Positions 22,553 through 30,260 of a DNA stretch of 64,000 nt are shown here, piece by piece. The stretch spans positions 186,001-250,000 of the forward strand of contig NZ_JAMHFY010000003.1 in assembly GCF_023897015.1 (NCBI RefSeq). Direction: 5' to 3'. Numbering within the stretch: position 1 is the stretch's first letter; every line of letters begins with the position of its first letter. The notes below the pieces were generated by a model. The model was not told the DNA's origin. It saw only the letters and a program-made list of their open reading frames with translations, and ran no database searches. Source of the stretch: Desulfosporosinus nitroreducens. GTDB lineage: Bacteria; Bacillota; Desulfitobacteriia; Desulfitobacteriales; Desulfitobacteriaceae. The translations under genes were made by a program, and so were the position numbers.

Positions 22553-22559
22553 CATATAA

Positions 22560-22830
22560 ACCGTTGAAGGGGAAGTAAAACCGCATGACCAACCTCACAG
22601 AGAGTCGAGTAAGGTGGAAGCTCGGCAGGTAATGGAGCGGGTAAATGGGCCCCAGAGGGTGGAACGAAAAAGCTCAGGCTTTAGTAGTTACCAACGCAGA
22701 GCCAGCGTTATTGGGCTAAGGGTGTGTTGGCACTCTGCATGAGGGGATGCATTATTATTTGTGCATTAACTAAGGTGGTACCGCAGATTAACGTCTGTCC
22801 TTATTTTAAGGATAGACGTTTTATTTTTAT
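22560..22830 (+). promoter_or_regulatory. T-box riboswitch with terminator, probable tryptophan specificity
   Basis: The antiterminator T-box motif GGTGGTACCGCAG is at 22774-22786, followed by the terminator ACGTCTGTCC (22791-22800) / GGATAGACGT (22810-22819) and a T-rich run. Stem I is recognisable: GGGG...CCCC base, AAGTA and AGAGAG internal motifs at the 5' side, apical TCGAG/CTCGG hairpin. The specifier loop reads GTAAATGGG (22641-22649), so the codon is either TGG (Trp, 22646-22648) or ATG (Met, 22645-22647). The downstream TrpX-like lipoprotein favours Trp. Binding of uncharged tRNA would switch on the downstream gene. Confidence 0.92.
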
Positions 22831-29765: not shown

Positions 29766-29981
29766 AGATGAGTGCGCCTCCCCAGTATAGTATGGTTATT
29801 GATAATTGGAATTATAACTCTATCTAGTGTATATTATGAACTCGTCTCTCAATTCAAAACAGTAAGTGAAGATTTACCATGGAGTCAGTGTTGAGGGCTT
29901 GCAAATCGTATAGGATAAAACGAATGAAAACTGCAATTTATGTGATACTAATAATAAAATAAATAACAGGAGGATATAACA

Positions 29982-30209
29982 ATGAAAAATGTAACTATGT
30001 TTTCCAACAATACCTGACCATATTGCACAGTAGCGAAGAAGTTTCTTTCGCAGAACAATATTCCTTTTGAGGAGAAGAATATCAGTACTGATCAGGAAGC
30101 TTTAAAAGAGTTGCAAAGCAGGAACATTAATAGTGTTCCCACTTTCTTGGTGGGGGATGAAACTGTTGTAGGTTTTAACAAGGAAAAGATACTTGCCCTT
30201 TTACATTGA
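29982..30209 (+). CDS. Selenocysteine-containing glutaredoxin (Sec-Pro-Tyr-Cys active site)
   Basis: 75 codons from ATG 29982 (AGGAGGATATAAC just upstream) to TGA 30207-30209, with an in-frame TGA at 30015-30017. Read as selenocysteine it gives MFSNNT-Sec12-PYC15-TVAKKFL, precisely the CPYC active site of a glutaredoxin with the first Cys replaced. The rest is a complete glutaredoxin: NIPFEEKNIS, the cis-Pro motif SVPTFLVGDETVVGF, and the last helix NKEKILALLH. A SECIS-like hairpin follows the TGA. Without read-through only an 11-residue peptide would form, and the conserved sequence after the TGA would be unexplained. It probably reduces disulfides or peroxide-derived species with high reactivity; the partner is unknown. 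The Sec machinery genes are outside the window. Confidence 0.9.
30020..30061 (+). promoter_or_regulatory. Bacterial SECIS-like hairpin downstream of the Sec TGA
   Basis: Lower stem ATATTG (30020-30025) / CAATAT (30056-30061), upper stem GCGAA (30033-30037) / TTCGC (30047-30051), 9-nt apical loop GAAGTTTCT. The upper stem starts 15 nt after the TGA, within the distance expected for SelB-dependent elements, and the loop carries a G near its start with U residues following. Confidence 0.7.
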
Positions 30210-30225: not shown

Positions 30226-30260
30226 AAAACCGCTGGGTACTTATAAAGCCCAGCGGTTTT
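30226..30260. terminator. Bidirectional terminator between selenoglutaredoxin and aminotransferase genes
   Basis: AAAACCGCTGGG (30226-30237) pairs perfectly with CCCAGCGGTTTT (30249-30260); loop TACTTATAAAG. It serves two convergent genes. Confidence 0.92.

Follow-up and report, generated by a model that had tools for sequence, protein, structure and literature searches.

Within the 64,000-nucleotide stretch of Desulfosporosinus nitroreducens DNA that was analysed (hereafter the window), a glutaredoxin gene interrupted by an in-frame TGA lies at 29982-30209 on the forward strand. Read under translation table 11, the frame comprises 11 codons and then TGA, and the standard-code ORF list of the window holds no ORF of at least 60 amino acids in this frame; the gene, here called grx1, is overlooked by a plain ORF search. 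When the TGA at 30015-30017 (+) is taken as selenocysteine (Sec) at codon 12, on the basis of its recurrence in relatives and of the Cys codons in homologues, translation continues to a TGA stop codon at 30207-30209 and yields a 75-residue product (MKNVTMFSNNT-U-PYC...LLH) with the active site U12-P-Y-C15. The Shine-Dalgarno sequence AGGAGG occupies 29968-29973 (+), 8 bases upstream of the ATG, and purine-rich sites resembling it, as judged by eye, precede most relatives of grx1. The product matches the Pfam family Glutaredoxin (PF00462; E 9.1e-15, 55.1 bits, cut-off 22.9), and membership of this family is further indicated by the predicted thioredoxin-type fold, the UxxC motif and a cis-Pro in V52-P53-T54. 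Residues C15, V52-P53 and G64 are unchanged in 14/14 sequences. The observation that opened this analysis, a glutaredoxin with Sec12-Pro-Tyr-Cys15 that conventional ORF calling leaves blank and that carries a proper Shine-Dalgarno and cis-Pro, is thereby confirmed.

The gene stands alone on its strand, and its neighbours on the opposite strand encode a carbon-nitrogen hydrolase, a class I/II aminotransferase and a 2-hydroxyacid dehydrogenase. As first noted, grx1 lies amid amino-acid metabolism genes with no linked partner gene; the neighbours differ in some species. Of the stretches fetched around the short-form loci (L034-L051, 18 in all), 13 contain the aminotransferase gene and 10 the hydrolase gene, and those of L044, L047, L048, L050 and L051 contain neither, indicating that grx1 is not tied to these neighbours. 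A terminator had been predicted 3' of the gene, and a strong inverted repeat of 13 pairs is found at 30226-30260 (no strand assigned; fold -21.9 kcal/mol, z -5.0). This is a probable terminator that may be shared with the convergent aminotransferase gene; a terminator scan with loops of at most 8 did not list it and returned one other site, 30121-30139, inside grx1. Sigma-70-like sites occur at chance level (2 found against 2.0 expected). Upstream of grx1, at about 29922-29929 of the window, the element GAATGAAA is kept in 8/8 species amid variable surroundings and was matched to no known box in the upstream alignment of these 8 species. Elsewhere in the window, a T-box leader lies at 22555-22805 (+; 98.2 bits).

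An AlphaFold model of the grx1 product, built with 14 sequences, has a pLDDT of 92, and its best structure match is PDB 7c10 (TM-score 0.94, rmsd 0.7, 49% identity). This structure is of dithiol cGrx1 from Clostridium (Alkaliphilus) oremlandii (PDB 7c10, 7c12 and 7c13). In PMC7642778, cGrx1 is described as a selenoprotein in its native form, the motif being U(or C)PXC. A phmmer comparison of the grx1 product with cGrx1 gave an E-value of 4.9e-20, and the two proteins share a UPXC-type site and the same length class. Sec-glutaredoxin (Grx, UxxC, WP_010943784) is also catalogued among selenoproteins and is listed with Geobacter sulfurreducens, Moorella thermoacetica and Alkaliphilus metalliredigenes (PMC13188914, PMC9312934, PMC1794560), and it has been reported from a limited number of species (PMC13188914). 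The grx1 product shares the UxxC active site and PF00462 with this bacterial family. Given the cGrx1 match and the prior cataloguing of a UxxC Sec-glutaredoxin, the grx1 product belongs to a known selenoprotein glutaredoxin family. Desulfosporosinus is not named alongside Sec-glutaredoxin in the parts of PMC13188914, PMC9312934 and PMC1794560 that treat it, and a literature search covering titles and abstract openings returned no report on a Desulfosporosinus glutaredoxin. In a search of NCBIfam, no model passed its cut-off: the best was TIGR02196 (YruB), with 72.3 bits against 88.55, so the product does not qualify as a YruB-family member, and the fourth was NF041212 (Uxx_star), with 49.5 bits against 66. 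For UXX-star families 1 and 2 the listed motifs are UxxT and GxGU (PMC13188914), whereas the grx1 product has UPYC.

A set of 29 Desulfosporosinus genomes, assigned to the genus through named records, and an order-level set of 73 genomes, 44 of them outside the genus, were searched. Whole-genome searches found some match to grx1 in 27/29 genus genomes, and in 23/29 a Sec form of at least 62% identity (62-99%) with one in-frame TGA each and a frame that is otherwise open, which is more than chance. These 23 include five longer, tailed loci (L052-L056), which could represent paralogues and not orthologues of grx1; the remainder are the short-form loci. Across the order, a grx1 match at E <= 1e-12 is present in 38/73 genomes, and a Sec form is present in 10/44 genomes outside the genus, with the TGA read in all ten. 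Nine of these ten relatives carry a C-terminal CxxC...CxxC tail, which the grx1 product does not have. Scanning named genomes yielded 22 loci, of which the nine closest (72-99% identity; eight labelled Desulfosporosinus and one a Bacillota MAG) all have TGA at codon 12 and the 13 more distant ones all have a Cys codon at this position. Cys is also encoded by four paralogues: L063 in genome G008, L149 in G003, L057 in G018 and L058 in G019, the last cut by N; G008 and G003 also keep a Sec paralogue. An in-frame UGA conserved in relatives is thus accompanied by Cys-encoding homologues, and the Cys/Sec exchange at position 12 for which an alignment of homologues had been proposed is present. Selenoglutaredoxins had been called known but rare; the first part stands, since the family is catalogued, and the second does not hold in this lineage. 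The Sec form is missing from six genus genomes (G013, G015, G018, G019, G021 and G025), four of which have a tRNA-Sec, so grx1 is dispensable.

Two further Sec-glutaredoxins are encoded in the D. nitroreducens genome, about 101 and 110 kb from grx1. One, at C33:114956-115177 (-) and beyond (locus L084; L148 in a sister genome), carries at its C-terminus a CxxC...CxxC tail similar to a zinc ribbon; the best Pfam match for such tails is Zn_ribbon_4 (E 2.4e-06, reached by one of the two sequences tested and below the Pfam cut-off). The third, at C33:105780-105974 (+; locus L033), is divergent, with the motif VPLUPYC and a different hairpin. Weak matches to this third group elsewhere in the genus have a TGA in some genomes, G018, G019 and G021 among them, and none in others.

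Bacterial SECIS elements are hairpins that lie just 3' of the UGA and present a G in the apical loop. A SECIS-type hairpin, GCGAAGAAGUUUCUUUCGC, is found at 30033-30051 (+), starting 15 bases past the TGA, with an apical G at 30041 and an unpaired base at 30047, and its pattern is unique within the window; a consensus SECIS model is mentioned in PMC9312934. Across 37 distinct sequences, AGUUUCU is invariant and the apical G is unchanged (37/37). The codons that form the hairpin are frozen in the 23 genus sequences (Ala GCG, Phe TTT and Ser TCG, each 23/23), and the observed/expected ratio of synonymous-codon identity in this set is highest at codons +5 to +11 (2.16), a few single codons being frozen outside the hairpin too (among them ACC directly before the TGA and AGT at +23). 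With 36 sequences, codons +5 to +11 are the gene's top 7-codon window for synonymous identity, at 0.825, compared with 0.396 on average and 0.457 at most when this window is taken from 200 synonymous shuffles, and at most 0.595 for any 7-codon window in 60 of these shuffles; the shuffles ignore relatedness, which the comparison with other windows of the same genes keeps.

Pairing is similarly well kept. In the 37 sequences, 98.0% of cells pair in the lower stem and 94.6% in a 7-pair version of the stem, and pair 20-36 is CG in 35 sequences and GC in two, with none broken. Pair 24-31 is non-standard in 11/37 sequences, where the register seems to shift. Covariation is thin, being confined to one pair in two sequences, and one such pair was also reached in 51/500 shuffles. 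If the 3' side is shifted by -2 columns, the covariation score rises from 0.053 to 0.059 and three pair types are seen instead of one, but only 74.3% of cells then pair against 98.0% in the proposed register. Folding energy is not significant, with z-scores of -1.2 over 19 nt and -0.7 over 60 nt. In the Cys paralogues, both the apical G and pair 20-36 are lost in 4/4, and much of the stem is retained (74.3% of cells pair over five rows that include the Sec reference). Judged from position, apical G, synonymous constraint, pairing and decay where Cys is encoded, the hairpin is under selection. A model, R1, was built from the glutaredoxin hairpins and spans 60 coding bases. In the D. nitroreducens genome it found only two glutaredoxin genes among the 150 of 3274 first-look candidates that were scored, a coverage that does not demonstrate the absence of such a hairpin from other genes. 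The two Sec genes score 79-84 bits and the Cys paralogues 34-38 bits, a gap that, given the 60 coding bases covered, does not test the hairpin by itself; the third glutaredoxin scores 18.8 bits (E 0.18) among the fetched stretches.

The machinery for Sec incorporation is present in the host. The original prediction called for selA, selB, selC and selD, and all were found: selA, selB and selD each have two copies over the cut-off, and three places exceed the Rfam cut-off for tRNA-Sec, two of which ARAGORN identifies as tRNA-Sec (UCA) and the third and weakest as tRNA-Ser. The two selD genes (C55:173868-174794 and C22:28795-29712) each contain an in-frame TGA near the N-terminus. In 14 control genomes, matches below the cut-offs were obtained in all for tRNA-Sec, selB and selD and in four for selA; over the cut-offs, tRNA-Sec matched in five, selB in two, selD in two and selA in one. 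With 100 candidates scored per genome, tRNA-Sec at E <= 1e-9 is present in 25/29 genus genomes and in 21/23 that carry the Sec form, and the two Sec-form genomes with no match (G005 and G026) are fragmented drafts, with about 970 and 250 contigs, respectively.

Opal-suppressor tRNAs that resemble tRNA-Sec are known, and the two tRNA-Sec-like genes with anticodon UCA could in principle allow the UGA to be decoded as another amino acid by a near-cognate or suppressor tRNA, for example one charged with Cys. This is very improbable, as both are tRNA-Sec by ARAGORN and over the Rfam cut-off, one is located some 7 kb away from the core selB and the other adjoins the second selB, clustered with selA and two Sec-type reductase genes; moreover, a hairpin under selection whose apical G is missing from the Cys-encoding paralogues is not expected of such decoding. 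That the TGA is a sequencing error for TGC or TGT, or a pseudogene mutation of the Cys codon found in the distant named loci, had been raised as a ground for refutation and can be rejected with near certainty, because independent genomes across the genus and the order repeat the TGA in a frame that is otherwise open. An 11-codon regulatory leader peptide that terminates at the TGA, the closely following hairpin then serving another purpose, is likewise rejected as extremely unlikely, since the frame past the TGA shows glutaredoxin conservation and ends at codon 76 or, in relatives, runs into the CxxC...CxxC tail.

The selenoglutaredoxin interpretation is therefore supported, and grx1 is very probably a core-genome selenoprotein gene in which UGA codon 12 is decoded as Sec via SelB and the hairpin, giving a selenol-thiol glutaredoxin. 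SelB would deliver Sec-tRNA-Sec to codon 12 because, as proposed here, it binds the hairpin 15 bases downstream. By analogy with the family, Sec12 would attack a disulfide or sulfenic acid of a client protein and Cys15 would resolve the mixed bond, with re-reduction by a thioredoxin-reductase-type flavoprotein or a small thiol. Glutamate-cysteine ligase PF04262, the one ligase family covered, has no match in the genome (the same search matches 2/14 control genomes), which points away from glutathione as the donor and makes a donor of the thioredoxin-reductase type plausible. The window contains a thioredoxin pair at about 15.4-16.9 kb, which had been taken to suggest a wider Sec-based thiol chemistry; read by eye, its thioredoxin has a CGPC motif and no in-frame TGA, so that this extension does not hold. 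Candidate clients include MsrA/B or a peroxiredoxin. cGrx1 is the proposed reductant of a Sec-containing MsrA (PMC7642778, PMC4479559), whereas the single MsrA found in the grx1 host is of Cys type, fused to MsrB and encoded about 64 kb from grx1, and the Sec-to-Sec partnership of C. oremlandii is thus not seen here.

The second set of Sec genes lies in an island at C95:84000-102000 of the D. nitroreducens genome (L081), with counterparts in genomes G010 (L151) and G020 (L152). The island is a betaine/sarcosine/glycine reductase cluster with its own selA, selB and tRNA-Sec, in the order selC-selB-trxB-trxA-grdA-(reductase C subunits)-selA-(B subunits)-BCCT transporter. NCBIfam cut-offs are passed by selenoprotein A, both C subunits, selenoprotein B (TIGR01918), TrxA, TrxB and the betaine transporter, and the other B subunit falls below its cut-off; grdA and the B selenoprotein each contain a TGA. 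Gene content and order, compared by eye from ORF lists, are the same in G010, on one contig, and in G020, for which ORFs of at least 150 amino acids were used. The island type of tRNA-Sec, of 92 bases against 94, is present in 3/29 genus genomes with 100 candidates scored per genome. Island SelB is 37% identical to core SelB and is found at 88-100% identity in the same three genomes only, out of 73 in the order, which suggests, from sequence distribution, acquisition from outside the order; the other matches among those listed, including the core SelB of the three genomes, are 35-44% identical to it. Sec-glutaredoxin is present in 20 genus genomes in which island SelB was not found, so the core set must read the grx1-type gene if it is translated there. 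The hairpins after the TGAs of SelD, GrdA and GrdB are single-sequence folds, which precludes an assignment of either SelB to a hairpin. It is doubtful that the two Sec systems are insulated, with the core reading the AGUUU-loop hairpins of the glutaredoxins and a horizontally acquired island set reading only its own reductase genes. Two tRNA-Sec in Desulfosporosinus orientis DSM 765 are already in print, with 13 selenoproteins (Table 3 of PMC5330540), and two complete operons are given for Photobacterium profundum 3TCK in the same paper. A literature search on two selB/selA/tRNA-Sec sets found no paper.

Among the sulfate reducers of this lineage Sec-glutaredoxin is common, not rare, and the natural Sec/Cys paralogue pairs in G003 and G008 are useful for asking how selenium benefits a glutaredoxin. 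The second selABC set, carried by the island, offers a way to test SelB-SECIS specificity, and the two sets, if insulated, would constitute a natural orthogonal pair of Sec-decoding systems in one cell.
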